IMG/VR virus record: IMGVR_UViG_3300009285_001298
Location: 1 to 22,784 of that record
Origin: a virus
DNA length: 22,784 bases
Direction: 5' to 3' (one strand)
The notes under the pieces are model-generated. The model was given only the letters and a program-made list of their open reading frames with translations. It was not told the origin of the DNA and made no database searches. The translations under genes were made by a program, and so were the position numbers. Of this stretch, positions 5,128 to 19,089 are shown one piece after another (position 1 is the first letter of the stretch; every line of letters begins with the position of its first letter).

Positions 5128-5134
5128 ATTGACG

Positions 5135-6160
5135 ATGGCTGCGACTGCGAGTAATAGCGCCCTCCGTCCAGAACTCTGGAATAAGACGCTTTGGGCGGAT
5201 GTCCGGGACAATCTGTACATGACCCGGTTTGTGGGGACGGCGAACACGTCCATGATCCAAGAACTCACCGACCTCAAAGCCGCCAAGGGGACGAACATCT
5301 CCTTTGGGCTTGGGGCCAAGATTGCCGCGTCGGATGCGGGCGTGTCGGGCGACACCGCCTTGGAAGGCAGTGAGGTGGCGATGACCGATTACGACGAAGA
5401 TGTGGCGATCAATCAACTCCGGCAAGGCGTGCTCTTGACCGGCGAGTTCGATGAACAACGGAATATGTACGACCAGCGGGAGAATGCCAAGAACCGGCTG
5501 GCGGATTGGTGGGCCGAGCGGATTGACCAAGAGCTGTGTGACAAGCTCTGCGGCAAGACGACCTCGACCTTCGCCAACACACCGACGGCGGCGGCGTCCA
5601 GCCGCACCGTGCGGGCGGGCGGGGCGGGGTCGATCGGGGCCATTACCACGGCCATGAAGATGGACACCAAAGTCCTGGATCGGGCCAAGCAGGTGGCGCT
5701 CGTGACGGATGCGGGCACCCCGGCCTTGCGGCCGCTGCGCATCAATGGGAAGCAGTATTTCGTGGCGATCCTCCATCCGTACGACGCGACCAATCTGCGC
5801 CAAGACCCGGTGTGGTCACAAGCGCAGCGGGACGCGAACGTGCGGGGCGAGGACAACCCGATCTTCTCCGGGGCGTTGGGGGTGTGGAACGGGATTATCG
5901 TGCATGAGCACGAGTATATCTTCCGCACCAACGATGGGTCGGCCTCCGCGCAGGTCGCCCGGAACGTCCTCTGCGGCCAACAGGCGGGGGTGATTGCCTG
6001 GGGCAAGTCGGTGAATTGGGTCGAGAAGACCTTCGACTACGGCAACCAGTGGGGCGTGAAGGTGGGCGCTATCTTCGGCTGCATCAAGCCGATGTTCAAC
6101 GCGGTGGACTATGGGGTGGTGACGATGTTCGCGGCGTCCGACACGGCCAGCACGGCCTAA
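5135..6160 (+). CDS. Major capsid protein, N4-gp56/DUF4043-like
   Basis: A 341-residue coat protein. It shows the family's typical arrangement: an N-terminal LRPELWNKTLWADVRDNLYMTRF segment, a K-G-T-N-I-S-F-G-L strand with a G-V-S-G-D-T-A-LEGSE loop at ~60-85, then D-V-A-I-N-Q-L-R-Q-G-V and a helix with FDEQRNMYDQRENAKNRLADWWAERID (~100-135) ending in LCDKLCG-like residues. The C-terminal half is the strand-rich capsid core with HPYDATNLRQDPVW and VNWVEKTFDYGNQWG. The length fits the family. It follows the scaffold-like gene by 11 bases and has the strongest ribosome binding site in this area. A GC-rich hairpin follows the gene. Confidence 0.88.
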   Translation: MAATASNSALRPELWNKTLWADVRDNLYMTRFVGTANTSMIQELTDLKAAKGTNISFGLGAKIAASDAGVSGDTALEGSEVAMTDYDEDVAINQLRQGVLLTGEFDEQRNMYDQRENAKNRLADWWAERIDQELCDKLCGKTTSTFANTPTAAASSRTVRAGGAGSIGAITTAMKMDTKVLDRAKQVALVTDAGTPALRPLRINGKQYFVAILHPYDATNLRQDPVWSQAQRDANVRGEDNPIFSGALGVWNGIIVHEHEYIFRTNDGSASAQVARNVLCGQQAGVIAWGKSVNWVEKTFDYGNQWGVKVGAIFGCIKPMFNAVDYGVVTMFAASDTASTA

Positions 6161-6230: not shown

Positions 6231-7256
6231 ATGGCACAACGCATTGAATATGACGGGCTGTGGTGGAAAGACCTGTTTGATGTCTTGAACGAGCTGGTCG
6301 GGAATTGGAATGCGTTCCTGGCGAAGCTGGACCTTGACACCGGCGATACCACTTGGCACGTGGATTACGATGTGGCGTCCCCCACGATTGGGACGGGGGC
6401 GCGGACAGACCTGTCGCCACGAGCGATGCCCACCGGGAAGCTCATCGAGCTGTTGAAGACGTTTAAGACGAATTTCAACGACACCCTCGATGCGATCAAC
6501 GGGGATGACGGCATTGCCGGGACGACGATCTTCACGGATCAGAAGTTGTCCACCACGACCGCTGCGGAGTTGATGGATGTCGCCAATGCGCGGGCCAAGG
6601 CGTTGGGGTACCATCAAGATGCCCTCGTGCGGTTCGTGGATGAGTGCGTGGACAATTTCAACAAAGTGCTGGATGCGTGTGACGCCGACGCGACCCTGAC
6701 CGATACCGACTACTTCAGTCTGTACGGGATCACGGATATCGTGGTCGCCTCCAGTTCGTCGTCGAGTTCGGTGTCGAGTTCGAGCAGTTCCTCGTCCTCG
6801 CGATCGTCGAGTTCCAGCAGTTCGTCGAGCAGTTCCTCCTCGTCATCGAGCAGCCGCTCCTCCAGCTCCTCGTCGTCGAGCAGTTCGAGCCGGTCGAGTT
6901 CGAGTTCCTCCTCGTCGAGCCGGTCGAGCAGTTCGTCCAGCTCCTCCCGGTCGAGTAGCAGTTCCTCGTCGAGTTCCTCGTCTCGGTCGTCCAGTTCCTC
7001 GTCCTCGTCGAGCAGTTCGTCCTCCAGCTCGTCCCGATCCAGCAGTTCGAGCAGCTCGTCGAGTTCCAGCCGGAGTTCCTCGTCCTCGTCGAGTTCGTCG
7101 TCGTCGAGTAGTTCCTCGCGGAGCAGTTCCTCCAGTTCGTCGAGTTCGAGTTCCTCCTCGTCGAGCCGGAGTTCCTCGTCCTCGTCCAGCAGCTCGTCGA
7201 GTTCTCGGAGCAGTTCGTCTAGCTCCAGTTCGTCGAGTTCGCAGGCCATTACCTAA
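6231..7256 (+). CDS. Virion-module protein with long poly-Ser/Arg tail
   Basis: A 341-residue protein with two clearly different parts. Residues 1-173 are ordinary in composition and probably mostly helical, with an N-terminal LWWKDLFDVLNELVGNWNAF segment. Residues 174-337 are serine with 11 spaced arginines and one valine, followed by QAIT and the stop. No known family is recognised for the N-terminal part. The position directly after the coat gene suggests a head-associated or attachment protein displaying a flexible tail. A Ser-rich tail of this size could be a stalk, an O-glycosylation acceptor or a cation/polyanion-binding brush. A GGAGG at 6222-6226 supports the start. A second gene at 17521 has the same kind of tail. 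Confidence 0.8.
   Translation: MAQRIEYDGLWWKDLFDVLNELVGNWNAFLAKLDLDTGDTTWHVDYDVASPTIGTGARTDLSPRAMPTGKLIELLKTFKTNFNDTLDAINGDDGIAGTTIFTDQKLSTTTAAELMDVANARAKALGYHQDALVRFVDECVDNFNKVLDACDADATLTDTDYFSLYGITDIVVASSSSSSSVSSSSSSSSSRSSSSSSSSSSSSSSSSSRSSSSSSSSSSSRSSSSSSSSSRSSSSSSSSRSSSSSSSSSSSRSSSSSSSSSSSSSSSSRSSSSSSSSSSSRSSSSSSSSSSSSSSSRSSSSSSSSSSSSSSSRSSSSSSSSSSSSRSSSSSSSSSSSQAIT
6750..7241 (+). repeat. Poly-serine/arginine coding tract 1
   Basis: 164 consecutive codons encode serine except for 11 arginines, spaced by runs of roughly 8-18 Ser, and one valine. Serine is written with TCG, TCC, AGT, AGC and TCT in an irregular mixture, with TCN and AGY codons interleaved. A slippage-derived repeat would keep one codon or a regular unit, so the amino-acid sequence rather than the DNA repeat appears to be maintained. 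On the reverse strand the tract reads as open Asp/Glu/Leu-rich frames, which are shadows. Confidence 0.95.
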
Positions 7257-7268
7257 CGGGAGGCGCTC

Positions 7269-7571
7269 ATGCCACGCGATCCACGATTGGCGGAGTCGGG
7301 CGTTCTCACCGAGAACGTGACGGTCAAAGAGTCTCCAGGGCTGGTGGTGTCCATCACCATCGCGTTTACGGGGGCCACGGCGGGGGCACGGTGTTACCTG
7401 CGCGACGGGACGGATGGGGCCGCGCCGGTGGCGGTGCCGTTTGTGTTGGGGGCGTCCAATGGGACGATCACCAAAGAATGGCCGGAAGGCAAACTGTTTG
7501 AGACCGGGATTTATTGGGACAATGGCCCGGCGGCCCCGGACACGGTGTTCGCCGAACTGACGTTCAAGTAA
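7269..7571 (+). CDS. Small beta-rich virion-module protein
   Basis: A 100-residue protein with alternating hydrophobic strands: SPGLVVSITIAFT, ARCYLRDGTDG, PFVLGASNGTITKEWPEG, ETGIYWDNGPAAPDTVFAELTFK. It is probably a compact beta-sandwich. Its location downstream of the capsid gene suits a decoration or head-completion protein, but no family can be named with certainty. The start is supported by GGGAGG about six bases upstream. The ribosome binding site plus start (GGAGGCGCTCATG) is identical to that of the second poly-Ser gene at 17521. It ends just before a strong hairpin that precedes the sugar cassette. Confidence 0.75.
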   Translation: MPRDPRLAESGVLTENVTVKESPGLVVSITIAFTGATAGARCYLRDGTDGAAPVAVPFVLGASNGTITKEWPEGKLFETGIYWDNGPAAPDTVFAELTFK

Positions 7572-7617: not shown

Positions 7618-8694
7618 ATGCCTGACGAACGGATTGAGATGTTCCGGCCGTACGTGCCGTATGAGGAGTGTCTGGCGGCATTAGGGGCCGTCCTCCGCAC
7701 CCGCTGGATTGGCGAAGGCCCGCAGGTCAAGGTCTTCGAGCGGGCGTTTCGTCAGCAGTTCAACGTGCCGTATGCCGTGTCCGTGAACTCCGGCACGTCC
7801 GCGTTGGACACCGCCTACGATTTGCTCGACCTCCAGGCTGGGGATGAAGTGATTACGACCCCCTTGACCTGCACGGCCACGAACCTGCCGTTGATTCGAC
7901 GGGGGGTGAAATTGGTTTGGGCGGATATTCTGCCCACGACCCTGTGCATTGACCCAGAGGATGTCCGCCGCAAGCTCACGCCCAAGACCAAAGCCGTGGT
8001 GCAAGTCCACCTCGGCGGGATTCGGGCGGAGGTGGAGGACGTGGGGGTGCCCGTGGTGTCGGATGCCTGCCAAGCCCTCGGGATCTTCGTCGGGCATTAC
8101 ACCGCGTGTTCCTTCCAGGCCATCAAGCACTTCACCACGGGGGACGGGGGGATGCTGGTCTGTACCGATCCGAAAGCGGCCCATAAAGCCCGGCTCCTGC
8201 GGTGGTTCGGGATTGACCGGGAAAAGAAGGTCAACAGCGGGTGGCAATCGTACAAAGACCGCAAGATGACGTTCCAGATTGAACTGCCGGGGACGAAGCG
8301 CCAGATGACCGATCTGGATGCCGCGTTGGGCCTCGTCGGGTTGGCCCATTACGACCGAATATTGGCGCATCGAAAGACGCTGTTTGACCGCTACCGCGAG
8401 CGCCTGACGGGGGTGGAGGGGATGACCCTCGTGGATGGCTCCCGCAATACCTATTGGCTCTGCACCCTCTTGGTCGAGCGGCGGGAGGCCTTGGTGCAAA
8501 AACTCTTTGAGGCCGACGTGGACACGAATCTTGTGCAGTTGCGGAACGACATTCAACCGATCTTCGGCCACAAACGTCAGGACTTACCCGTGATGAATGC
8601 GGTGGAATCGAAGTATCTCTCGGTGCCGTTGGGGATGCACGTGTCCCTCGACGACGTGGACTACATCTGTGACACGATTCGGGCGGGGTGGTGA
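7618..8694 (+). CDS. DegT/DnrJ/EryC1/StrS-family sugar aminotransferase
   Basis: A 358-residue PLP-dependent enzyme of the family that transfers an amino group, usually from glutamate, to a nucleotide-activated keto-sugar. Diagnostic features are NSGTSAL at ~57-63 (phosphate of PLP), T-T-P-L-T-C-T-A-T-N at ~80, D149 in SDACQALG (pyridine nitrogen) and K170 in SFQAIKHFTTGDGG (Schiff-base lysine). GDGG replaces the commoner GEGG. The length is near normal (about 370). No dehydratase or nucleotidyltransferase is nearby, so its keto-sugar substrate must come from the host or from genes outside the window. It opens the cassette after a hairpin and overlaps the next gene as TGATG. An internal ATG at 7639 is a possible but poorly supported start. 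Confidence 0.92.
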   Translation: MPDERIEMFRPYVPYEECLAALGAVLRTRWIGEGPQVKVFERAFRQQFNVPYAVSVNSGTSALDTAYDLLDLQAGDEVITTPLTCTATNLPLIRRGVKLVWADILPTTLCIDPEDVRRKLTPKTKAVVQVHLGGIRAEVEDVGVPVVSDACQALGIFVGHYTACSFQAIKHFTTGDGGMLVCTDPKAAHKARLLRWFGIDREKKVNSGWQSYKDRKMTFQIELPGTKRQMTDLDAALGLVGLAHYDRILAHRKTLFDRYRERLTGVEGMTLVDGSRNTYWLCTLLVERREALVQKLFEADVDTNLVQLRNDIQPIFGHKRQDLPVMNAVESKYLSVPLGMHVSLDDVDYICDTIRAGW

Positions 8695-11522
8695 TGGTCA
8701 CCTGTCCCGTGTGCAAAGACCCTGTGCCGAAGTGGGGCGGGGTGCGGAACGGCCATCTGATGCTAACGGAAGATGCCGAGGGACACAAGCATGTCCACGG
8801 TGACCTCGAACGGAAAGGCATTATGCAGGGGTTGCTTGAGAACGCTCAGGAAGTCATCGGCATGCCGGTGGTGGCGACCGCTCAAAAAACGCTCCCCAAG
8901 GAAGTGGTCTTCCATAGCCGGATGCGGATCGGAGATTCGCTGGTCATGACCTGCGGGATTCGCGACTTCAAGGCCGCGTTCCCCTCCGTCCGGGTGGGCG
9001 TCAACTCCACGGCCATGCACCTCTGGGATCACAACCCGGCGGTGGATCGGACATTGCTCCAAACCAAAGAGAATACGGTCAATATCGGGACTGGCTGGTT
9101 GACCACCGCCAGTAATCGGCTCGACTGGCACATGACCAACGCCCATCGGGTCTCGATTGAACAGGCGTTGGGGGTGTCCATTCCGCAAGGGGTGTCCCGC
9201 CCCGACATTTGGTTGACCGAGGAGGAATACCATGCGCCCCGCGTCTTCAAAGCCCCGTACTGGCTCATTGTCGTTAACGGCGAAAAGGGCTGGGGATGCA
9301 AGATGTATCCCTTCGAACGCTGGCAAGCAGTCATTGACCAGAACCCTGACCTCACATTTGTCCAACTCGGCACCAAGGGCGACAATCCTCCGCGATTACA
9401 CGGGGCAAACGTGGTGGACTACGTCGGACGCACAGAGGATAAACTTACTGGAGTACGCGATCTCTTTACGTTGTTCCTGAACGCCGAGGGTTCGTTGGGG
9501 TTGGTCAGCTTCCACATGCACCTGTCGGGGGCGCTCTGGAAACCCGCCGTCGTGGTGGCCGGGGCTCGTGAACCCGCGCACTTCACCAAGTACGAAGGGC
9601 ATCAATACCTCGAAAATGGGGGCACGTTGCCCTGTGCGGTGACGGCGTGTTGGCATTGCGATCTTGACCGGTGTACGAACCTAGTGACCCATCAAGGCGC
9701 TTCACTGGTTGAACCTTATATAGACAACGCGCAGGTGTTGTTCACAAAAGAGAACGATCCTGATGGAATTAAGCGACAGGCGTGGATCAAGGAGCAGAGG
9801 AACGCTCTGGCTCCGGCACGAAGACCTAAGTGCGTTGACCTGATAGAACCCTCTGACATTACCCGCGCCATACGCTCGTACTATCGCGGGGGCCGTCTCC
9901 GGCTCGATCAGCCGTCCGGCCCGACCCCGAAGAAATTCTGTCATGTGGTGCCGACGCCGGTGTCGGTGGCCGTCCCGTCCGGCCCGTCCTTACAAGACCG
10001 GATCACCCAGCAGTACGGGTCCCGCTACGCCTTCAAGTTCGGCGGCGGGTCGCTGACCGAAGGCGATTGGCGGTTTCTCGACCGGCTCATCACCGAGCGC
10101 GTGGTGAAGACCGTCTTGGAGTTTGGGGCCGGGTTGTCCACCTTGCTCTTCGCCGAGAAAGTCCAGGTCACGACCTACGAGACGATGAATCACTGGATTG
10201 CGCGGCTGAAGGCCGAGAAGCCCGACCTGGATATTCGTCAGTGGGATGGCAAAGACACCCCCATTGATCAGCCGTATGACTTGGCCTTTGTGGATGGGCC
10301 GTCGGGGGGCGAGAACCGGGAGCATAGCGTGCGGCTGGCGGCCCAGCACGCCCGGATGGTGGTCGTGCATGACGGCGGATTCGCCCCAGAACAGGGCTGG
10401 CAGACCAAGTACCTGCGCGGCGTGTTCACGGGGCCGGAGAAAGCTGGCGATCGGGGTCGCTTCTGGGAACGCCCGCATACCCCCGCGCCCGCGCCGTCGC
10501 CGGACTTCGTGTTGGGGGACGAACCCAGCGTCCAGAGGGGCTTATCCATCAAGGTCGTGTCCACGGCCCGTGGCTGGGGAGGGTGTGCGCGGTCGCTGAC
10601 CACCCTGATGGCGTTGATGGTCAAGGCCGGGCATGCGGTCGAGTTCATCCCGTTCCGCAACGCGGTGGGGTCGGCGGAGTTCCGGTCGGCGTTGGAGAAC
10701 GGCTTGGCCCCCGTCCACGTGACCCTCTCCTACGAGACGGTGCGCGATCCGTGCGACCTGCTCCTGGTCTACGCCGATGACTTCGTCTGGGAATTTGGGG
10801 CACCGGCGATGATGGACGCCCTCTCGACCCTCCACGCCCGGCAGAAGGTGATGGTGGTGAACTACCGGCGGGGGAAGATCGGGGAAATTCCCTGGACGCA
10901 AGGCTGGGATCAGTACCTCTTCCTGAACCGGGTGCAGGAAGCGGACTTCCGCCGGGTGTGTCCCACCGCCGCCAAGACCACGGTGATGGCCCCCTGCACG
11001 GACTTGGCTCCGTTCTTTGCGGTGACGCCGAATTACACAGCCCCCCTCCGGGTCGTCCGGCACAACAGCCAGGGCGACAGCAAGTTTGCCAAAGATTGTG
11101 CAACCAATATCCAAACGGTATTGGATGGACGGTTAGACACCACGATCCACATGATGCCAGGCCCCAGTTTCGTCCCGGTCTCTGACCGGTTCGTCCGCCA
11201 CAAGAAGAATGATCCACCCGTCCCGACCTTCCTGGCGTCTGGGAACGTCTTCTGGTACGCGCTTCCGACGGGGTACATTGACGCGGGGCCACGGGCCGTG
11301 ATTGAAGCGATGGCGGCCGGACTGCCCATCGTGGCCGACCCGTGGGGCGGCGTGGTGGATCGGGTGACGCCGGACTGTGGGTGGCTGGGGACGGTCGCCG
11401 AGCAGGTCGAGGTGTTGCGGACAGTGACGCCGGAGATCCTCCGAGAGAAAGGGCTGGCGGCCCGCCGGCGGGCCAAAGCCGAGTTCGCCGCGGAGCGGTG
11501 GTTAGAGGTGTTGGGGTGCTAA
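8694..11522 (+). CDS. Fusion: GT9-like + SAM methyltransferase + GT4-like
   Basis: A 942-residue protein. Residues ~1-45 have a zinc-ribbon-like CPVC plus a GHKHVHG cluster. Residues ~60-350 resemble GT9 (ADP-heptose:LPS heptosyltransferase) proteins: FHSRMRIGDSLVMT, GEKGWGCKMYPFERWQAVI, VQLGTKGD and a late LVSFHMHLSGALWKPAVVV segment. Residues ~430-590 form a class I SAM methyltransferase-like domain with VLEFGAGLSTLLFA at ~474-487 (E476) and FVDGPSGGENREHS. Residues ~615-942 resemble GT4, with GPRAVIEAMAAGLPIVADPWGG around E871. The protein probably adds at least two sugars and methylates or binds a nucleotide. GC content drops at ~9660-9780, near the first domain junction. ATG 8694 is chosen (TGATG overlap); GTGs at 8688 and 8691 are possible. 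Confidence 0.85.
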   Translation: MVTCPVCKDPVPKWGGVRNGHLMLTEDAEGHKHVHGDLERKGIMQGLLENAQEVIGMPVVATAQKTLPKEVVFHSRMRIGDSLVMTCGIRDFKAAFPSVRVGVNSTAMHLWDHNPAVDRTLLQTKENTVNIGTGWLTTASNRLDWHMTNAHRVSIEQALGVSIPQGVSRPDIWLTEEEYHAPRVFKAPYWLIVVNGEKGWGCKMYPFERWQAVIDQNPDLTFVQLGTKGDNPPRLHGANVVDYVGRTEDKLTGVRDLFTLFLNAEGSLGLVSFHMHLSGALWKPAVVVAGAREPAHFTKYEGHQYLENGGTLPCAVTACWHCDLDRCTNLVTHQGASLVEPYIDNAQVLFTKENDPDGIKRQAWIKEQRNALAPARRPKCVDLIEPSDITRAIRSYYRGGRLRLDQPSGPTPKKFCHVVPTPVSVAVPSGPSLQDRITQQYGSRYAFKFGGGSLTEGDWRFLDRLITERVVKTVLEFGAGLSTLLFAEKVQVTTYETMNHWIARLKAEKPDLDIRQWDGKDTPIDQPYDLAFVDGPSGGENREHSVRLAAQHARMVVVHDGGFAPEQGWQTKYLRGVFTGPEKAGDRGRFWERPHTPAPAPSPDFVLGDEPSVQRGLSIKVVSTARGWGGCARSLTTLMALMVKAGHAVEFIPFRNAVGSAEFRSALENGLAPVHVTLSYETVRDPCDLLLVYADDFVWEFGAPAMMDALSTLHARQKVMVVNYRRGKIGEIPWTQGWDQYLFLNRVQEADFRRVCPTAAKTTVMAPCTDLAPFFAVTPNYTAPLRVVRHNSQGDSKFAKDCATNIQTVLDGRLDTTIHMMPGPSFVPVSDRFVRHKKNDPPVPTFLASGNVFWYALPTGYIDAGPRAVIEAMAAGLPIVADPWGGVVDRVTPDCGWLGTVAEQVEVLRTVTPEILREKGLAARRRAKAEFAAERWLEVLGC

Positions 11523-12166
11523 CCTTTGCCGAGGTCTTTCACACGACGCCCCATGCGTTGAGTGTCAAGTATCCCCATTACTTGCCGATTTACGAGACGC
11601 ATCTGGCCCCGTTTCGAGGCCAGTCCGTGCAGGTGTTGGAGATTGGGGTGGGCTGTGGAGGGTTTCTCCAAGTGCTCCAGACCTATCTCGGCCCTCAGGC
11701 CATCGTGCGGGGGTTGGATGCGAACGTCGGGAATCTTATTCCAGAGATGATCCCCTCGGTGTTGACGGGGTTTCAGGAAGACACGGAAGCACACCGTCGG
11801 GTCTTTGAGGCCCTGCCGTCGCCGAGCATCATTATTGATGACGGAGGCCATCAACCCTATGAACAACTCGCCAGTTTCCGTGGGTTGTTCCCACGGCTGG
11901 CCACTCCCGGCGTGTACATTGTCGAAGATACCCAGTTCTCCTATGCGCCGAAGTATGGGGGCTATAAGCACCCGGGCACCTTCATCGAGTTTGTCAAAGA
12001 CCGTGTGGATGATCTCAATGCGTGGTGGGCGGAGCCGGGCGACCCGCAAGCCACCGACTTCACGAAAATGACCTTTGGGATCCACATCTACCCGAACTGC
12101 GTGGTCTTTGAGAAAACCCCCGTGTTGCTCTCGAGCGCCATCCGCGTGGAGGTGCCCCATGCGTAG
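11516..12166 (+). CDS. SAM-dependent sugar O-methyltransferase, MycE-like
   Basis: A 216-residue class I methyltransferase. Motif I is VLEIGVGCGGFLQVLQTYLG at ~40-59, followed by the acidic GLDAN. The segments IIIDDGGHQPYEQLASFRGLFPRL and GVYIVEDTQFSYAPKYGGY match the metal-binding DDG(S/G)H and LFP...YVVED pattern of the MycE family of macrolide-sugar O-methyltransferases. It probably methylates a hydroxyl of a sugar made or attached by the neighbouring enzymes; the true acceptor is unknown. The start is placed at GTG 11516, which has AGAGG upstream and overlaps the fusion gene by seven bases; a longer frame reaching back to 11342 is a shadow of that gene. It overlaps the next gene by eight bases. 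Confidence 0.82.
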   Translation: MLTFAEVFHTTPHALSVKYPHYLPIYETHLAPFRGQSVQVLEIGVGCGGFLQVLQTYLGPQAIVRGLDANVGNLIPEMIPSVLTGFQEDTEAHRRVFEALPSPSIIIDDGGHQPYEQLASFRGLFPRLATPGVYIVEDTQFSYAPKYGGYKHPGTFIEFVKDRVDDLNAWWAEPGDPQATDFTKMTFGIHIYPNCVVFEKTPVLLSSAIRVEVPHA

Positions 12167-12731
12167 CTCCTACGCGCCCGCCAAGTACGACGAGGTGTTG
12201 ACCCAGCTCGTCGTGGGGTTCCGACCCACCATCTGTGTGGAGCTCGGGGTGTTGGATGGCTTCAGTGCCTGTGCCTTGGCGGAGGGCCTCCGCACGAATG
12301 GCGCGGGACACCTGGATGCCTACGACTTGTTTGACCAGTACCCCTACAAGCACGGGGAACAGACGGCGGTGCAAGCGGAATTGGACGCCAAGGGCTTGAC
12401 CCCATGGGTCACGCTCCATCAAGCCGATGCCTATACCGTCCATGAGCGGTATGAGCATAATACGGTGTACGTGCTCCACGTGGACATCAGCAACGACGGG
12501 GAGACGATTCGCCGGATCATGTCGGCGTGGGACGAGAAGATGGTCATTGGAGGGGTGGTGATCTTTGAAGGCGGGTCGTCGGAGCGCGATCAGGAGCCGT
12601 GGATGCTGACGTATCAGAAGCCGCCGATCAAAACGGCCATCGAGACCGACCCTATCTTGAATAGCCGGTACGTGTACGCGACGTATTTGAAGTGGCCGAG
12701 TCTCACGACGTGTTTGAAGAAGAGGGCCTGA
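12159..12731 (+). CDS. Class I SAM methyltransferase (Methyltransf_24-like)
   Basis: A 190-residue protein with motif I CVELGVLDGFSACALAEGL at ~30-48, an acidic LDAYDLFD strand end, then a late VYVLHVDISNDGETIRRIMSAW and MVIGGVVIFEGG. This is the Rossmann-fold order of small Methyltransf_24/CmcI-like enzymes, with the glycine-rich loop slightly altered (E-L-G-V-L-D-G). GGAGG seven bases upstream fixes the ATG at 12159. It is embedded by overlap between the MycE-like gene and the MORN gene, so all three are probably co-translated. Likely substrate is a sugar or a sugar-linked group; the sequence does not decide it. Confidence 0.75.
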   Translation: MRSSYAPAKYDEVLTQLVVGFRPTICVELGVLDGFSACALAEGLRTNGAGHLDAYDLFDQYPYKHGEQTAVQAELDAKGLTPWVTLHQADAYTVHERYEHNTVYVLHVDISNDGETIRRIMSAWDEKMVIGGVVIFEGGSSERDQEPWMLTYQKPPIKTAIETDPILNSRYVYATYLKWPSLTTCLKKRA

Positions 12732-13198
12732 TGGCGATCCGACGAGAACTCTATCCCACGGGGCGCGTGTCGTGGGAAATCCCGTTAGATGCGGACGGAC
12801 GCTGGCACGGCGAGTTCATCCAATACTACCCCGATGGGAGTGTGGAGTGGGTGATTCCGTATGTGCAGGGCAAACGTCACGGACAGGCCTCCCAGCGTCA
12901 CCCGAACAACCGGCTGAAACTCACCCGCGAGTATGTGCAGGGGCAGAGGCAGGGCGTGGAACGTCTCTTTCAACAGGATGGGGCGACGCTAACGGAAGAA
13001 ACGCATTACGTCGAAGGCACCAAACAGGGTCGCCGACGCTGCTGGCGACCGGATGGCACGTTGGAGAGTGACGGGGAGTATGCCCACGACGTGTTGCATG
13101 GCGCGTTCCGTCGGGTGGCCCCCGACGGGTCGGTGATCCACACGGCCCAGTATACCCGTGGGCAGGCCACGGCACGGAGCGCCCATGACCGACGCTGA
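12731..13198 (+). CDS. MORN-repeat (YwqK-like) protein
   Basis: A 155-residue protein built from about six MORN-type units of ~22 residues, with repeated Y-x-x-G-(K/R)-x-x-(H/Q)-G motifs: ELYPTGRVSWEI, YYPDGSVEWVIPYVQGKRHG, YVQGQRQGVERLF, YVEGTKQGRRRCWRPDGTLESDGEY, DVLHGAFRRVAPDGS. MORN proteins form twisted beta-sheets used for protein or lipid contact. Database relatives are often labelled YwqK antitoxins, but no toxin neighbour is seen, so a structural or partner-binding role in the cassette is more likely. The start overlaps the previous stop as TGATG with AGAGGG upstream. The end overlaps the next gene by 14 bases. Confidence 0.8.
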   Translation: MAIRRELYPTGRVSWEIPLDADGRWHGEFIQYYPDGSVEWVIPYVQGKRHGQASQRHPNNRLKLTREYVQGQRQGVERLFQQDGATLTEETHYVEGTKQGRRRCWRPDGTLESDGEYAHDVLHGAFRRVAPDGSVIHTAQYTRGQATARSAHDRR

Positions 13199-13514
13199 CC
13201 GGATTGCCCTCAAGCGGTTTGTCCAACAGATCACGGAGCAACCCTGGCCCCTCGACCAACAGCCCTGTCGGGCCGAAGGGGTCTTCCGCTGGTGTACCGA
13301 CTGGGAACTGATTGAGCTCGGCAAGTGCTTGTTCTTGGGGGAGGCCACGTACCTGGCCGATCCGCCCCCGCGCCGGTTACGCTTCAATCCACTCTGGTCG
13401 CAGGACGCGATTGTCCAGGAAGCCCGGCGGTTGCTGACCGTCCATGCCGACTCGGTGGACACACTCCTCAGTGAACTCCAGTCTCGGAGGGCCTCTTATG
13501 CCCACGGTGGCTGA
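13185..13514 (+). CDS. Hypothetical 109-residue protein
   Basis: A small, mostly helical protein of 109 residues with several tryptophans (QPWPLDQQPCR, FRWCTDWELIELGKCLFLGEATYLADPPPRR). No family is recognised. Its ATG overlaps the MORN gene by 14 bases and its end overlaps the following methyltransferase by 17, so it is locked into the operon. Codon use is like that of its neighbours. A partner or chaperone for the adjacent enzymes is conceivable, but nothing in the sequence shows a function. Confidence 0.65.
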   Translation: MTDADRIALKRFVQQITEQPWPLDQQPCRAEGVFRWCTDWELIELGKCLFLGEATYLADPPPRRLRFNPLWSQDAIVQEARRLLTVHADSVDTLLSELQSRRASYAHGG

Positions 13515-14160
13515 GCATCCGGGCTCGCGGGATACGTTTGACACCTTGTCCTCTGGGCGCGACGGGTTGGAACGGTTTCGCATCCTCGAAGATGTGGGGC
13601 AGTATGTGCTCAACGGCGTCCAGGGCGACGTGGTGGAGATTGGCGTGGGGGAAAGCTCCTTTTTCCTGACCCGGCTCACCGACCGCTTCAAACGACGGAT
13701 GTGGCACTGCGATGTGTCCCCTGGCAAGATCGTGAACCCGATGACGATTCCTGGCTATTTGGGGGAGCCACGCACCTATCTGGAAGAGCGCGACTCCGTG
13801 CCTGAGACCCTGGCGCGGGTCATCTGCTTCGCGGGGACATCGGATGCGCTCTTCCGGAGATTTTCCATCGGCCCCGTGGCCTTGGCATTTATTGACGGGG
13901 ATCATACCTACGACCAAGCCAAGAAAGACTTTGACCACCTCTGGCCACTGGTGGTTCCAAACGGGGTCGTGGCCCTCCATGACACTTACCCACCGGATGC
14001 CGCGTGGACGGATGAGAATCATTGCGGAGAGGTCTACCGGCTCCGGCAAACCCTGGAAGCACGGGCGGATCTGGATTGTTTCACCTTCTCTCGTGGCACC
14101 GCCATCGGGGTGGGGATCACGTTCGTGCGGAAACGCGACCCGGATTACGCCTACCGATGA
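13498..14160 (+). CDS. Class I SAM methyltransferase, CmcI/Methyltransf_24-like
   Basis: A 220-residue methyltransferase. Motif I is GDVVEIGVGESSFFLTRL at ~42-59, followed by MWHCDVSPGK. ALAFIDGDHTYDQAKKDFDHLWPLV and GVVALHDTYPP give the IDGDH-x-Y and HD motifs of metal-dependent Methyltransf_24 enzymes. It is the third free-standing methyltransferase of the cassette. The start at 13498 is supported by GGAGG seven bases upstream and overlaps the previous gene by 17 bases. Its last 10 bases overlap the 3' end of the antisense HNH gene, which was apparently inserted right at this stop codon. Confidence 0.82.
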   Translation: MPTVAEHPGSRDTFDTLSSGRDGLERFRILEDVGQYVLNGVQGDVVEIGVGESSFFLTRLTDRFKRRMWHCDVSPGKIVNPMTIPGYLGEPRTYLEERDSVPETLARVICFAGTSDALFRRFSIGPVALAFIDGDHTYDQAKKDFDHLWPLVVPNGVVALHDTYPPDAAWTDENHCGEVYRLRQTLEARADLDCFTFSRGTAIGVGITFVRKRDPDYAYR

Positions 14161-14711
14161 GGTACCTGGCGACCATCAAAAATGATTTCCTGGGGCAGGA
14201 CGTTCTTGCCATACTCAAAACGCATGTGTGCAGATTGATTGGCAAAGGCCATCAGTTGATGAGGACGATTATCGGTTTTCCTTCCAAGGTGATGAACCAC
14301 TTCGGTTCGTTTCAACATTCGTCCAAGATATTTCTCGATATTCAATCGGTGTTCAGGAACATATCCACGAACAGTTGCCATTGGGTGAGAAGGAGATTTT
14401 CTCATCCTGTAGCCATCTCGAAGAACCGTCTCTCTCCATCGAGCGTTATTCCGTCCAGTGAATTGTTGGCGGTACTCAGGACGTTTCCACAGCGATTTCA
14501 GTTGTTGGCTTCGTCGCCTACGCCGGGCTGGATCACTCCAGACTTTTTTGAGGGTTCGGCGCAAGCGTTCCATCGGTTCATGATGGCTCCATATGTTTTG
14601 CATCGTGCGACGATGGCGAATTTTGACACTTGGTTGGTTCCAAGTACGAAGATTCGATTGCCTGATTTTCTCTCTAACTTGGCAAGTGTGGTGCGCTCCT
14701 TTGGGTGGCAT
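14151..14711 (-). CDS. HNH homing-type endonuclease 1 (antisense)
   Basis: A 186-residue protein on the opposite strand to the operon. Residues ~1-95 hold basic, repeated helices (VREKIRQSNLRTW, ERLRRTLKKVW, RSQQLKSLWKRP) like NUMOD3 DNA-binding modules. The HNH domain (~120-170) has GYVPEHRLNIEKYLGR, EVVHHLG, DNRP and AH-x-R-F, so the catalytic His pair, Asn and last His are present. It ends IIFDGRQVPHR. It is roughly 60% identical by eye to HNH 2 over the nuclease domain. Its local GC content is about 48% against 60% or more around it. The start at ATG 14711 is chosen because a promoter-like sequence ends seven bases before it; a TTG at 14747 would extend the frame. Its last 10 bases overlap the upstream gene. 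Confidence 0.87.
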   Translation of the reverse strand: MPPKGAHHTCQVREKIRQSNLRTWNQPSVKIRHRRTMQNIWSHHEPMERLRRTLKKVWSDPARRRRRSQQLKSLWKRPEYRQQFTGRNNARWRETVLRDGYRMRKSPSHPMATVRGYVPEHRLNIEKYLGRMLKRTEVVHHLGRKTDNRPHQLMAFANQSAHMRFEYGKNVLPQEIIFDGRQVPHR

Positions 14712-14718
14712 AAGGGTT

Positions 14719-14747
14719 ATTATGCATTGTTTGGTTGCAGAAAGCAA
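14719..14747 (-). promoter_or_regulatory. Possible leaderless promoter of HNH 1
   Basis: Reading the - strand, TTGCTT (14747-14742) and CATAAT (14724-14719) are separated by 17 bases and resemble sigma70 -35 and -10 boxes. The HNH ATG starts only seven bases past the -10, so the message would begin at or near the start codon. The -35 is weak, matching consensus at three of six positions. The layout matches the stronger promoter of HNH 2. Confidence 0.45.
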
Positions 14748-14749
14748 GC

Positions 14750-15787
14750 ATGAACGACTACGACCGCCTTAAATGGAAACTCTCTGGTATTGAGCCGTGG
14801 CAAGACAGTGCCGATGGCGCCGAGTATCGAGGCCCCGATGGGTATAGTCTCTACGATCTGTCCCTTGCCAATTCCATGCCTTGCGAACAACAGGTGGCGG
14901 TAGTTGTCACCGCATGGTCGGGACAGTTGAAGTGGCTGGCCGCGACCCTCGCATCCTACCGCCGGAGCGGGGCGTACGTCGTGCTGGCGTATGACCATCA
15001 TACCCCGCCGTGGATGGTCACGAGTACGGATCATCTGCTTCGCACATTTCCGAATCCACGGCATTACCAACTCGCATCCGCGGTGGTCTTCAAACACACC
15101 ACCTATGATTGCAATAAACGTGCTGGCTGGTTTTGGGATATTCGGTATGCCCAAGGCGTGCTCCGCAACTTCCCAAATTTGAAGCATATTTACGTCACCA
15201 ACGGCGACTGCGCGTGGGATCGTCCGGACGGTCTGCCGCAGTTGATTGACCTGTTGGGGACGGGCGACCTCCTGCCGGGCCAACAGTGGCATGAGACCTT
15301 TCACACGGCGTCCGTGCTCTACAAGGCCGACGCGTTTCACCGCATCGTTGATCATATGGCTGACCAGATGCGCGTCCCCATCATGGGGTCGCTGAGTGCT
15401 GAACGGCTCTTGCAAGAGGCAGTCAAGGCCCTCTCCTTACGGGTGGTGCCAGCACCATTGCAACCCCGTGACCCGACGGATGGCTCGGTGGATATGTACG
15501 CCCGGTATGGTCAGCAGTCCACGTTTCGTGAGGTGGTGGGGTTCAGAAATTTGTTCGCCGAATACGAAACGGCAGGGAATGAAGGCCGAGACGTGGCGTT
15601 TCTGAAACCCTACGTAGATTTGAATCCATTTTACTGGGGAGGCGAGGAACGAGAAACCGTCTGCCAGTATTGGGCCACGGGCGACCGACGGTACCTCTAT
15701 CAATGGCAAGATAGATGGGAAGATTCCGATTACAACCGATTGAGTTACCCCCTCACGCACTATGGGTCGGAGCCCATCTTCGCATGA
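14750..15787 (+). CDS. Putative GT-A-like glycosyltransferase, paralog 1
   Basis: A 345-residue protein. A strand-helix opening VAVVVTAWSGQLKWLAATLASYRRSG at ~50 leads to VVLAYDHHTP. A DxD-like site HIYVTNGDCAW follows (D153). This order is that of GT-A folds, where such residues bind the nucleotide-sugar metal. The C-terminal part has VGFRNLFAEYE and CQYWATGDRRYLYQWQDRW. It is a diverged paralog of the protein at 16543, matching in the same order across the whole length. It lies directly after HNH 1 and overlaps the next small gene as ATGA. The ATG at 14750 is chosen over a TTG at 14735. No strong ribosome binding site is seen (GAAAGC). Family assignment is tentative. Confidence 0.62.
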   Translation: MNDYDRLKWKLSGIEPWQDSADGAEYRGPDGYSLYDLSLANSMPCEQQVAVVVTAWSGQLKWLAATLASYRRSGAYVVLAYDHHTPPWMVTSTDHLLRTFPNPRHYQLASAVVFKHTTYDCNKRAGWFWDIRYAQGVLRNFPNLKHIYVTNGDCAWDRPDGLPQLIDLLGTGDLLPGQQWHETFHTASVLYKADAFHRIVDHMADQMRVPIMGSLSAERLLQEAVKALSLRVVPAPLQPRDPTDGSVDMYARYGQQSTFREVVGFRNLFAEYETAGNEGRDVAFLKPYVDLNPFYWGGEERETVCQYWATGDRRYLYQWQDRWEDSDYNRLSYPLTHYGSEPIFA

Positions 15788-15954
15788 GTGCCCGCCAGAT
15801 CAAGAAGCTCCGTCAGGAAGCCCGACGTGCCGGGCAGTCGTACAGCGTCAACACCGTCGTCCCTGCCTTCGTGCAGTATGTGAACCGACTGTCGTGGCAA
15901 CGCCGCTGGCAGGTCGCGTGGCGGGTGCTGTGTGGGCGGTTCACATGGTTGTAA
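15784..15954 (+). CDS. Small basic Trp-rich protein
   Basis: A 56-residue, strongly basic protein starting at an ATGA overlap with the glycosyltransferase-like gene. The N-terminal MSARQIKKLRQEARRAG is a charged helix. The C-terminal RLSWQRRWQVAWRVLCGRFTWL is amphipathic and Trp/Arg rich, as in membrane-surface or nucleic-acid-binding helices. No family is recognised. Its 3' end overlaps the antisense HNH 2 gene by 14 bases, so its original C-terminus may have been altered when that gene arrived. It is real by overlap and codon use rather than by homology. Confidence 0.6.
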   Translation: MSARQIKKLRQEARRAGQSYSVNTVVPAFVQYVNRLSWQRRWQVAWRVLCGRFTWL

Positions 15955-16507
15955 CCGTTCTCCCGTCAAAAATAATCTGGTGCGGAACCACTGGTAGATT
16001 TCTATGAAATCGCTTATGGGCGGTGTCATTGGCAAAGCATATCAGCATTTCAGGACGGTTATCGCTCGTAAGGCCCAAATGGTGCACAACCTCTGTGGGG
16101 TTCAAGTACCGACCGATGATGCGTTCCACGATCAACCGATGTTCCCTCACATAACCGCGTTGGGTTGCAAATGGATGATTAGGATTCAGTCGAAATCTGT
16201 AGCCACGTTTATTCGTGGTGATTCCGCCATTCCACGATCCATTATTTGCTCCAGTGAACTTGGCGCGAAACGCTGGCGACGCCCACAACTGTTTCCAGTT
16301 GGCGCTCATCTTTGCATGGCGCTGTGGATTCTTCCACGATCTCAGCAGCGATTTCCGATGCTTCGACTGCAACGATGGGTTACGCCATGCTCGACGATTG
16401 GACACCGTGACACGTCTGCGATGTTCAGGGCATTGCCATCGCTTCAACGCGGCCTCGCGCATTTTTTGAATGGTGTCTTGGGAGTGTTTCAGTCCTTTCA
16501 TGGTCAT
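15941..16507 (-). CDS. HNH homing-type endonuclease 2 (antisense)
   Basis: A 188-residue protein opposite to the operon. It starts MTMKGLKHSQDTIQKMREAALKRW, a NUMOD3-type module, followed by more basic repeats (RRRVTVSNRRAWRNP, KSLLRSWKNP, ANWKQLWASP). The HNH domain has GYVREHRLIVERIIGRYL, EVVHHLG, DNRP and AHKRF, with all catalytic positions kept. It ends IIFDGRTVTTM, almost the same as HNH 1. Free-standing HNH genes of this kind cut phage DNA lacking them and spread by homing. No Shine-Dalgarno precedes it, but a good promoter ends six bases before the ATG at 16507; the second ATG at 16501 is possible. It overlaps the upstream gene's 3' end by 14 bases. Its GC content is below that of its neighbours. 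Confidence 0.88.
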   Translation of the reverse strand: MTMKGLKHSQDTIQKMREAALKRWQCPEHRRRVTVSNRRAWRNPSLQSKHRKSLLRSWKNPQRHAKMSANWKQLWASPAFRAKFTGANNGSWNGGITTNKRGYRFRLNPNHPFATQRGYVREHRLIVERIIGRYLNPTEVVHHLGLTSDNRPEMLICFANDTAHKRFHRNLPVVPHQIIFDGRTVTTM

Positions 16508-16542: not shown

Positions 16543-17496
16543 GTGGGATTGACGAGAGCCGATTTGATTCGGAGCGGGCCTTGGTTAGAACGATCTGACG
16601 CCGAGTGGGAAGCTGAATTAGCGACTCGCCAAGCATGGATTGATCGAACGAGAGCCAATGACGTGTGGGCGACCAAGACGCTCAAACCGCTGGCCGTCCT
16701 CTTGACTTCCCACCAAGCGAACCGTCCATTCCTCAAAGCCTCGGTCGAAAGCCATGCGAAGTTGGGGTATTGGCTAACACTCGCCTATGACAGTTACGTG
16801 GATCCCACCTGGCCGACGCTCGACCACAACGCCTATCTGCCACCCAAAGACGTATTGGATCAAGTCAATCTCTTTTTGATGCCGACGTACCAAACATGGG
16901 GCGGACCTCTCTTCGCGTATTATTGGCTCCTCAAATGGGGTTCGGCAGCACTCCGAGACTTCGAGGTGCTGTACTGCGCGAACGGGGATTTTGTGTTGGA
17001 GAAGCCCGAAGGGTTTCCGGCCTTGCTCGCCTTGCTGGGGGATGCGGATATCCTCACCTCTGGGCCGGATCGCGATGATCCTCCTGCCGCCAATACCGCC
17101 GGGTTCTTGGTGCGGACTGACGCGATGCGTGCCATCGTCAAACACCTCCAAGACCATCTGGTGCCGTGGGAGCACTACGAGAAGCATACCCAGCGGGTGG
17201 GTAACATGGAGGGACGGTTGGGCTGGGCGATCAAAGACTTGGGCTTAAAGCAGGTGCGGGTCGAGCCGCCGACAGAAGATATGTTCCGCGAGCCAGGGCA
17301 TGGGACGTGGGCTGACCTCGTGGGCTTCCGCCACATTCATGCGGAACTCAACGCGGCCTACCGGCATGGAGGCATTCCGCCTCCGGTGAAGTATCTTGAC
17401 CCACGCTATACCAGTCCGAATGATTGGACCGTCTTGACCGAGTGGGAACGGACGGGCGATCCCGCCGTCCTGGAGGCGTGGCGTGCCCATGCGTAA
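16543..17496 (+). CDS. Putative GT-A-like glycosyltransferase, paralog 2
   Basis: A 317-residue protein with the same order of motifs as the gene at 14750: LAVLLTSHQANRPFLKASVESHAKLG, WLTLAYD, a DxD-like VLYCANGDFVLEKPEGFPALLALLGDADIL (D149, against D153 in the paralog), a long helical middle, VGFRHIHAELN, KYLDPRY and a final EWERTGDPAVLEAWRAHA. A nucleotide-sugar transfer role is inferred from the fold pattern and from cassette context; no named family is certain. The start is GTG at 16543, with AGGGG at 16528-16532 ten bases upstream. It lies directly after HNH 2, as paralog 1 lies after HNH 1. It ends the sugar cassette just before the second poly-Ser gene. Confidence 0.62.
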   Translation: MGLTRADLIRSGPWLERSDAEWEAELATRQAWIDRTRANDVWATKTLKPLAVLLTSHQANRPFLKASVESHAKLGYWLTLAYDSYVDPTWPTLDHNAYLPPKDVLDQVNLFLMPTYQTWGGPLFAYYWLLKWGSAALRDFEVLYCANGDFVLEKPEGFPALLALLGDADILTSGPDRDDPPAANTAGFLVRTDAMRAIVKHLQDHLVPWEHYEKHTQRVGNMEGRLGWAIKDLGLKQVRVEPPTEDMFREPGHGTWADLVGFRHIHAELNAAYRHGGIPPPVKYLDPRYTSPNDWTVLTEWERTGDPAVLEAWRAHA

Positions 17497-17520: not shown

Positions 17521-18402
17521 ATGGCGGTGCTAGAGCAAAGCACGACAGGGGTTGATACAGGGGTAAACCTCAGCAGCGGACAGGATATGGCGATGAGTTT
17601 TGCGCATGCCGTAGACTCCACCGTGGATTCGATTGAGTTTCAAACCGGGGCGCAGACGACGGGTGGCACAATTACCGTTCGTCTTGAGACGGATAGTGCG
17701 GGCAAACCGTCCGGGACGCTGGCCTGGGCCAACGCGACGGGGAGTGTCGCGTCGGCGGCGGATTCGTGGTTGTCGGTGGTGCTCGCGGCGGCTGGGACGA
17801 TTCAAGACAACACGACGTATCATATCGTGTTGGAAACAGCGGACGCGGTCGTCGTCTGGCGGTTGGCGGCCGCCGGGGCATACGCGAACGGCAATTTGAG
17901 CTACAACGCGGGATCGCCTCCTTGGACGACGGATACGCGGGATGCCAATTTCAAGGTCAACGGGACGGAAAGTTCCAGTTCCTCGTCCTCGTCCTCCAGT
18001 CGAAGCAGTTCGAGTTCGTCGTCCAGTTCCAGTTCGAGCCGGTCGTCGTCAAGTTCCAGTTCGTCGTCCAGTTCCAGCCGGAGCAGTTCGTCCTCCTCGT
18101 CGAGTAGTAGTCGGAGCAGTAGTTCCAGTAGTAGCAGTTCCTCGTCGAGCAGTAGTAGCTCGTCGTCCAGCAGCAGTTCCAGCAGCAGCCGGAGCAGTTC
18201 GAGTTCCTCGTCGAGTTCGAGCGCGGTGGTGTGGCGTGATCGGACGGAGAACACCGGCACGTGGGCGGATCGCGCCGAAGCGTTGTCCTCCAGTTCCAGC
18301 CGCTCGTCGTCCAGCAGTAGTTCGTCCAGCAGTTCGTCGTCCTCGTCGAGCAGTTCCAGCTCCTCGTCGAGTTCCAGCAGTAGCAGTTCATCGAAAGGGT
18401 GA
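17521..18402 (+). CDS. Beta-sandwich protein with interrupted poly-Ser/Arg tail
   Basis: A 293-residue protein. Residues ~15-148 look like a jelly-roll of the kind annotated as choice-of-anchor R or carbohydrate-binding: MAMSFAHAVDSTVDSIEF, TITVRLETDSAGKPSGTLAWA, SWLSVVLAAAGTIQDNTTYHIVLE and a Trp-bearing VVVWRL. Residues 151-234 and 256-291 are serine with spaced arginines. Between them, 235-255 hold a short segment with W-R-D-R-T-E and W-A-D-R-A-E, an internal duplication. A beta-sandwich head on a Ser stalk suits a surface or fibre protein. GGAGGCGCTCATG at the start is identical to that of the gene at 7269. The same tail type at 6231 suggests both share a modification or assembly function. 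Confidence 0.8.
   Translation: MAVLEQSTTGVDTGVNLSSGQDMAMSFAHAVDSTVDSIEFQTGAQTTGGTITVRLETDSAGKPSGTLAWANATGSVASAADSWLSVVLAAAGTIQDNTTYHIVLETADAVVVWRLAAAGAYANGNLSYNAGSPPWTTDTRDANFKVNGTESSSSSSSSSSRSSSSSSSSSSSSRSSSSSSSSSSSSRSSSSSSSSSSRSSSSSSSSSSSSSSSSSSSSSSSSSRSSSSSSSSSSAVVWRDRTENTGTWADRAEALSSSSSRSSSSSSSSSSSSSSSSSSSSSSSSSSSSSSKG
17971..18393 (+). repeat. Poly-serine/arginine coding tract 2
   Basis: Two serine blocks at 17971-18222 and 18286-18393 are separated by 63 bases encoding a Trp/Asp/Arg/Glu linker. Arginines are spaced within the blocks. Serine codons are mixed between TCN and AGY types as in tract 1. The reverse strand and a second + frame stay open through it, but those frames are by-products of composition. 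Confidence 0.93.
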
Positions 18403-18405
18403 GCC

Positions 18406-19089
18406 ATGATCCTGAGCGCGTTTAAGACCTATGTGAAATACGATTTCAAACGGACGGATAAAGACACCGAGTTGGTGCAGGCGACCAACGATATGATCGC
18501 CTGGGTCGCGGCGTTGATGCCGATGGGGAACTATAAGTTCCAGTCCTATCTCTCGACGGTGACCGGCCAGGAAGATTACCCGCTCCCTACCGACTTGCTC
18601 CATCTTTATCATCCGGTACGGTTCCTTAAAGGCACCACGAGTGCGGATGAGGGCTATGACCTGATTCAATTGACGAAGACGGAGTACGACCAGCGGGAAC
18701 CGAATCCCAATCGGACGAGTCCGACCACCGGGACGCCGACCCACTACACGATCTGGTCGCGGCAGGTACTCCTAACACCCATCCCCGACGCCTCGACGTA
18801 CCTCATCGAGATCAACCGAGGCAAGAAACCGACGACCGTGGCGAATGACGCCGATGTCCATAACTTGGGCTCGGAGTGGGATCCCGTGTTGAAAGTCGGG
18901 GTCTTGGAACGCCTCTACGCGGGGATCGGGATGGTGGAGGAAGCCGCGTATTGGGCGGCGCAGTACAAGGAGATGACCGGCGGCCCGACGTTCGGCCAGC
19001 CGACAGGTTTCTGCAAGACGCTGTTCGACCGCGAGCGGGATGTCGAAGGGGTGGCTTCGGTCGGGCTGGTTCAGAACCACGACCTCTAA
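18406..19089 (+). CDS. Head-tail adaptor-like protein (putative)
   Basis: A 227-residue protein. Helical N-terminal residues (TELVQATNDMIAWVAALMPMGNY) are followed by FQSYLSTVTGQEDYPLPTDLLHLYHPVRF, a pattern common in phage adaptor and gp4/gp6-like connector proteins, where a strand is followed by YxLPxDxLxxxxV. A middle HYTIWSRQVLLTPIPDASTYLIEINRG and a helical C-terminus (YAGIGMVEEAAYWAAQYKEM) follow. In podoviruses such proteins join the portal to the tail machine. It begins four bases after the poly-Ser gene and is followed by the fibre gene after nine bases. Assignment is by pattern and position. Confidence 0.55.
   Translation: MILSAFKTYVKYDFKRTDKDTELVQATNDMIAWVAALMPMGNYKFQSYLSTVTGQEDYPLPTDLLHLYHPVRFLKGTTSADEGYDLIQLTKTEYDQREPNPNRTSPTTGTPTHYTIWSRQVLLTPIPDASTYLIEINRGKKPTTVANDADVHNLGSEWDPVLKVGVLERLYAGIGMVEEAAYWAAQYKEMTGGPTFGQPTGFCKTLFDRERDVEGVASVGLVQNHDL

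Follow-up and report, generated by a model that had tools for sequence, protein, structure and literature searches.

Why should the gene that follows the major capsid protein gene of a phage end in an almost pure chain of serine? The question is raised by the window, the whole stretch of DNA analysed here, which is the complete 22,784-base virus record of a tailed phage encoding a terminase (phrog_2), a portal protein (phrog_156), a major capsid protein (phrog_334, E 1e-77, and PF13252) and an SU10-type adaptor. Coordinates refer to the plus strand unless marked (-). The capsid gene (5129..6160) lies immediately upstream of an open reading frame at 6231..7256, here called Ser-tail gene 1, which comprises an N-terminal domain (N-domain, 6231..6749), a serine tail (6750..7241) and four C-terminal residues, QAIT (7242..7253), followed by TAA. 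The 164-residue Ser/Arg tail described in an earlier sequence-only reading of this DNA has exactly these coordinates, and it contains 152 Ser, 11 Arg and 1 Val. The serine runs between the interrupting residues (interrupters) are 7, 9, 17, 11, 9, 8, 11, 16, 11, 15, 15, 12 and 11 residues long; the Arg spacing of ~8–18 residues given in that reading is right, but the first interrupter is the Val. Serine makes up 4.7% (289/6086) of the residues in the 18 other window genes taken for comparison, and at that rate the binomial probability of at least 152 Ser in 164 residues is about 10^-184, which is a formality. The two serine codon sets are interleaved as had been described, with 97 TCN and 55 AGY codons that show no clustering (77 class runs vs 71 expected). 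Codon periodicity is absent from the window tail (best of 60 lags, z = 1.8) and its tandem-repeat scores are weak. Exact internal repeats reach 31 nt, and none of 100 codon shuffles gave more than 29 nt, which implies that an old in-frame duplication contributed to the tail.

Relatives were gathered by searches with the capsid and the N-domain; a portal query was unproductive. Counting the window, 23 loci have a contig long enough to reach the tail, and in all of them the gene after the capsid carries a serine tail; in some relatives one small gene lies between the capsid and the tail gene. In L002, L009, L024, L071, L073, L078, L079 and L083 the contig stops before the tail. The complete tails are 76–194 residues long, those of L003 and L067 being cut by the contig end. 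All 23 are open, in frame and 78–98% Ser, with both codon sets mixed, and the presence of the tail is kept at 55–80% capsid identity. Among distant capsid relatives (34–50% identity) none of 23 has a Ser tail, although some of these contigs end soon past the capsid. In the relatives the tails end in QAVA, QAVV, QAVS, QAIS, QAVT, QSIG, ESIG, ESVG, ESL or ATA.

The residues that interrupt the serines are informative. With L038 left out as a near-copy of L039, 22 tails give 2793 codons, of which 2530 encode Ser and 263 encode interrupters (R 104, C 62, L 26, K 23, I 10, M 7, V 5, Q 5, Y 5, F 4, N 4, E 4, H 2, T 1 and A 1). Thr, Ala, Pro, Gly and Asn together account for 6 of the 263, vs 48–59% expected from one-step changes of the actual Ser codons, and 112 of the 263 interrupter codons are two changes away from any Ser codon. 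These two figures imply selection on the serines and on the interrupters alike. Judged from the sequences, selection holds serine itself and not general flexibility. The idea that amino-acid composition is under selection is thus upheld across the family, where the tails stay in frame and serine-rich on mixed codons. Cys is the only common interrupter among the close substitutes of Ser.

The interrupters are also evenly placed. In the window tail the coefficient of variation (CV) of their spacing is 0.24, vs 0.93 for random placement (0/2000), and spacing is even at p<0.05 in 18 of 20 testable tails, the exceptions being L044 (0.052) and L082 (0.24); L003 and L081 have too few runs for this test. 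Neighbouring interrupters, as in CR, were counted as one in the data but separately in the random draws, a bias towards regularity in Cys-Arg tails; such pairs are absent from the window tail. A Cys-Arg pair, or Cys every few residues, serves as interrupter in L004, L036, L041, L042, L043, L067 and L088–L095. Tails with QA-type ends are interrupted mostly by Arg, Lys and Cys, and tails with ES-type ends by Leu, Met, Phe, Ile and Glu with some Arg and Lys and no Cys, except that of L081, which has only 2 Lys. The sequence-only reading had offered two roles for the arginines. According to the first, the spaced arginines anchor the tail to DNA, lipid or a polyanionic glycan, which would suit their even spacing, their place as the commonest interrupter (104/263) and the fact that they are all of the window's interrupters but a Val. 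Relatives nevertheless use Leu, Met, Phe, Ile, Glu, Gln, Lys or Cys instead, and the tails of L008 and L044 have neither Arg nor Lys. Arg anchoring as a family-wide function is ruled out by these interrupter identities, and we regard an anchoring role as quite improbable. The second role, that the arginines mark units, is half right: the spacing is more even than random, but the identity of the marking residue varies.

What sets this identity seems to be something that acts on all tails of one genome, to judge from the sequences compared. Serine tails carried by non-homologous proteins of one genome have similar interrupters, with a Jensen–Shannon divergence (JSD) of 0.18 within genomes vs 0.63 between them (13 tails, 5 genomes, 0/10000). 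One tail of L004 has 24 Cys and 5 Arg and the other 35 Cys, 6 Arg and 1 Tyr; L043 uses Arg and Cys in three genes, and from the tails of three L044 genes Arg, Cys and Lys are all absent. Copying of DNA between tails was rejected as the cause, since the longest common exact stretch is 14–25 nt within genomes and at most 23 nt between them. The exception is one 113-nt pair in L044, and with one of the pair removed the result is still 0/10000. Base composition was likewise rejected as the cause of the hydrophobic interrupters (Spearman correlation with GC –0.26, p 0.23, 22 tails).

The DNA beneath the tails behaves differently from the protein. The near-twins L069 and L070 differ in 10 of 318 capsid codons; their tails align, with some uncertainty, as 49 identical codons, 41 synonymous, 5 changed and 9 gapped in whole codons. 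The many TCN/AGY switches between them point to block turnover rather than point mutation. Exact in-frame internal duplications of 67 nt (L044), 36 nt (L069) and 34 nt (L006) are also present. Exact repeats and frame-disrupting changes in relatives had both been named in advance as evidence against protein-level maintenance. The former do occur, all in frame, and none of the latter was seen. Duplication and recombination would thus make the tail DNA, while selection keeps its product serine. The statement that slippage alone is inadequate holds for the mixed codons and the lack of periodicity, but duplication does build this DNA. Pure slippage is out by the interrupter statistics, the aperiodic window tail and the comparison with codon shuffles. 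A reading in which DNA-level repeat expansion is everything and the product has no function could draw on the in-frame duplications and the very fast turnover between L069 and L070. It is hardly credible in view of the mixed codon sets, the aperiodic window tail, the 23 tails in frame, the 112 interrupter codons two steps from Ser and the persistence of the tail at 55–80% capsid identity. Across all family tails, TCN and AGY codons alternate more often than in shuffles (1548 vs 1204.5, pooled z 15), possibly through avoidance of slippage or a load split between two Ser-tRNA sets. No tRNA genes were found in 14 sources. The end of L067 and the start of L088, which come from the same sample, have 126 nt in common inside the Ser tail, and the two may be pieces of a single phage that assembly split within the tail.

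The N-domain that carries the tail is built from a long helix that recurs three times. Aligned against one another with hhalign, the repeats score a probability of 93–97 and represent three diverged copies of a helix-plus-loop unit; the AF2 model places the helices at residues 11–37, 68–91 and 129–152 (pLDDT 69.6). The N-domain had no match in Pfam, PHROGs or the PDB sequences, and none among PDB and BFVD folds, the latter a weak test with a model at this pLDDT. A single-sequence search of viral contigs returned nothing, nor did searches of genome contigs or, with the L004 homologue as query, of phages. By these sequence comparisons it is an orphan family.

Downstream of the tail lies a block of genes that bears on its function. 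A conserved 100-aa gene (7269..7571), found downstream of the tail in relatives too (tblastn), is followed by a DegT-type sugar aminotransferase (7618..8694; PF01041 E 5e-71; nearest NCBIfam PseC, below cut-off) and by a 944-aa enzyme (8688..11522) made up of a glycosyltransferase family 9 (GT9) domain (about 8817–9911) in which four Cys are invariant, a middle part and a C-terminal end of GT group-1 type. The GT9 domain shares 29.7% identity with its counterpart in L056 (E 6.5e-35), which itself matches PF01075 over cut-off (E 2e-9). The middle part looks like a class I methyltransferase without a family match, and the C-terminal end matches PF13692/PF00534 below cut-off. Next come methyltransferase-like genes (11519–12166 and 12075–12731, PF13578 E 3e-14 and 1e-15; 13444–14160, PF01728 E 0.005, below cut-off) with a MORN-like gene among them (12692–13198; MORN_2 PF07661 E 1e-6, just below cut-off), for which tblastn found no counterpart in the relatives. 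The protein of 16543..17496 is predicted to be a GT-A-fold glycosyltransferase, its AF2 model (pLDDT 76.7) matching by Foldseek (E 2e-6, prob 1.00) and by VIA (Z 13.5, 163 residues, rmsd 2.6). A 350-aa paralogue (14735..15787; 24–27% identity, common invariant AYD and N-x-D) is, by this paralogy, a probable GT-A glycosyltransferase as well. Two antisense ORFs within the block, 14151–14747 (-) and 15941–16507 (-), look alike and are possible homing endonucleases; the first has a weak HNH_3 match (E 0.007) and the second none.

Beyond the block come a second serine-tailed gene (17521..18402), which is unrelated to the first, and the head-tail adaptor (18406..19089; PF24175 SU10_adaptor E 6.5e-14). 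The second gene starts with a choice-of-anchor R domain (17521–17970; NCBIfam NF041539, 31.7 bits, cut-off 30), and its Ser/Arg tracts (17971–18222 and 18286–18393), which the sequence-only reading of the first tail did not mention, are separated by WxDR repeats (18223–18285), so that its tracts have material on both sides. At the same position, L054 has a laminin-G domain and L056 an F5/8C domain before the tract. WxDRxE repeats follow second-tail Ser tracts in L046 (16090–19199), L050 (551–1336), L054 (14360–18023) and L057 (3–1324). In the cultured Paracoccus phage vB_PmaP_KLEP18-1, which has the same capsid family (30–38% identity) and the same order of terminase, portal, capsid and adaptor, the gap between capsid and adaptor holds three small genes only (gp12–gp14). 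By this comparison the tail and sugar genes of the window are an island. The capsid relatives of the window phage presumably also include Bcep22-like podoviruses. Searches of cultured phages with the GT9 enzyme, the 100-aa protein, the second-tail protein and the WxDR end gave no match.

The content of the block varies with the type of tail end. In all 7 loci with QA or QS ends that extend far enough, DegT comes after the tail, and a methyltransferase-GT9 gene without DegT is present in 9 of 9 ES-end loci with enough sequence. On the capsid tree the match of end type and block type counts as one well supported independent pair, and a single clade of ES ends is not rejected (AU p 0.072). Other sugar genes in relatives include a dTDP-glucose 4,6-dehydratase-like gene in L050 (which passes the cut-off of PF16363 but falls short of the NCBIfam one) and a UDP-GlcNAc 2-epimerase in L058 (over its NCBIfam cut-off). 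GT2 (PF00535) was found in none of 16 records.

The link between GT9 enzymes and serine tracts extends beyond the family. A GT9 domain profile built from 12 aligned members matches heptosyltransferase II (1psw) in the PDB (E 4e-4), and all 36 aligned domains keep the four Cys without exception. A scan of viral contigs with this profile gave 47 loci; after removal of 12 on known family contigs and of ten (L113–L122) that had the same scan score as L112 and were grouped with it, 25 records remain. Ser tracts occur in the fetched stretch of 14 of these and elsewhere in five more (L098, L099, L101, L112 and L124), found by pattern and then translation, which gives 19/25. The six records in which no Ser tract was found (L096, L097, L100, L102, L103 and L110) are all fragments. 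When L088, L103 and L111, which have window-type virion genes, are left out, the count is 17/22; L088 is also the record that shares sequence with L067. The same pattern found Ser tracts in 0 of 30 control records (24 from a terminase set and 6 distant capsid relatives), and against these controls, chosen regardless of other glycosyltransferases, Fisher p is 6e-10 for 19/25 and 1.2e-9 for 17/22, the co-occurrence being read one way only, from GT9 to Ser tracts. In 80 control loci there are 5 weak frames on the antisense strand, with 18–20 Ser in 30, and none higher. The tracts lie on the same strand as the enzyme in 14 of 14 loci. An earlier Ser-tract protein query was blind even to a known tract and hence uninformative. 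The 273,563-base record of L099 (G026) has many separate Ser-tract stretches, at 2.1 kb and at 260–272 kb, and a GT9 gene. That GT9-carrying phages usually have Ser tails suggests particles coated with sugars attached to serine.

There are precedents for an enzyme of this kind beside a protein acceptor. TibC and AAH, which act with TibA and AIDA-I, are GT9-like enzymes, and TibC is a dodecamer. TibC is reported to transfer heptose onto Ser, not Thr, of autotransporters and to have a four-Cys iron finger, Cys-339/342/358/370 (PMC4358343). The phage locus resembles these systems in having a GT9-type gene beside a presumed acceptor and four Cys near the C-terminal end of the GT domain, and a Ser-not-Thr acceptor preference would fit the selection on the phage tails. 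It differs in that the acceptor there is a beta-helix, while here it would be a near-pure Ser chain on phage proteins, and in Cys spacing, which is C-x2-C-x15-C-x11-C in TibC and C-x4-C-x7-C plus a distant fourth Cys in the phage GT9 domain. Because acceptor and Cys spacing differ, we do not claim membership of the TibC–TibA family; the likeness would be one of working. By this analogy, the near-absence of changes from Ser to Thr, as a TibC-like enzyme would impose, leads us to take the tails as acceptors. The serine-rich repeat glycoproteins of streptococci are another comparison, having a Ser-rich acceptor beside their own glycosyltransferase genes, with alternating Ser-x repeats, GtfA/GtfB and an accessory Sec system. 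The phage tails are like them in the Ser-rich chain beside glycosyltransferase genes, but no alternating Ser-x repeat or cell-wall anchor was seen. Virion glycosylation is attributed to the mycobacteriophages Che8 and Rita in work cited by PMC11256854, where phage-encoded glycosyltransferases are taken to modify particle proteins. In that account the major capsid protein bears the sugar, whereas here Ser tails are the presumed acceptor and the enzymes are encoded between capsid and adaptor. Searches of open-licence literature, judged by title and opening of the abstract, turned up no description of Ser-tail acceptors with a linked GT9 enzyme; one survey gives 115 residues as the longest of its low-complexity regions in phages (PMC6821194).

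We infer, as the probable but by no means certain reading, that the Ser tails are disordered acceptors for phage-encoded serine O-glycosylation and form a mucin-like coat on the particle, the tail proteins probably being particle proteins. The TibC-like GT9 enzyme would put the first sugar on the tail serines inside the infected cell, and its extension or branching would fall to the GT-A proteins together with the C-terminal GT domain. The DegT, dehydratase and epimerase genes would make an unusual activated sugar, and the methyltransferases would cap the glycan. Attached to head or tail through their front domains, the chains would form sugar-covered stalks or a coat resembling mucin. The single interrupters, placed about 8–17 residues apart, would divide the chain into acceptor blocks suited to the genome's own enzyme. 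Alternatively, the sugar block could modify the host surface. This would leave the tails as unmodified flexible spacers that give binding domains reach, with the sugar block serving some other purpose of this sort, an explanation that we consider unlikely but worth weighing. Its best evidence is in the second tails, with the laminin-G and F5/8C domains before the tract and the WxDR repeats behind it, and in Saccharophagus degradans (S. degradans), where polyserine linkers are reported to separate functional domains in many carbohydrate depolymerases (PMC2386152). Those linkers are like the phage tracts in adjoining carbohydrate-binding domains. Tail 1, however, is terminal and joins nothing, ending 4 residues before the stop; its interrupters are even and genome-specific, and it is of phage origin with a linked GT9 gene. 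A spacer selected for flexibility would tolerate Gly, Thr, Asn, Ala and Pro, which make up only 6 of 263 interrupters, and it leaves the co-occurrence with GT9 (17/22 vs 0/30) unexplained. Selection specific for Ser would fit a serine kinase too, and the tails could then be polyphosphoserine chains binding metal or cations, for which phosvitin is the comparison. The block proteins scanned include no kinase family and have sugar enzymes instead, and although a host kinase is possible, we hold phosphorylation to be very improbable.

More tentatively, the O-glycosylation that we favour may be one case of a mobile system of virion modification, a wider reading that we think rather doubtful as it stands. 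A GT9 enzyme with a four-Cys finger and poly-Ser tails would be paired in unrelated tailed phages of up to 273 kb. The tail would be a portable module of stalk proteins, lectin-like proteins and those adjacent to the capsid, and the evenly spaced interrupters would be genome-specific punctuation read by the enzyme, giving each phage its own pattern of glycan blocks.

Few phages are known to have glycosylated particles, and in those it is ordinary capsid protein that carries the sugar. If the proposal is true, a dedicated poly-Ser acceptor served by a GT9 enzyme of its own would account for a group of low-complexity genes seen in uncultured phages, and the tail would be a simple portable protein tag for hyperglycosylation. 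Tests of how phages evade surfaces or stick to them would become possible as well. The tails themselves show selection acting residue by residue in a low-complexity tract, while the underlying DNA turns over with hardly any constraint.
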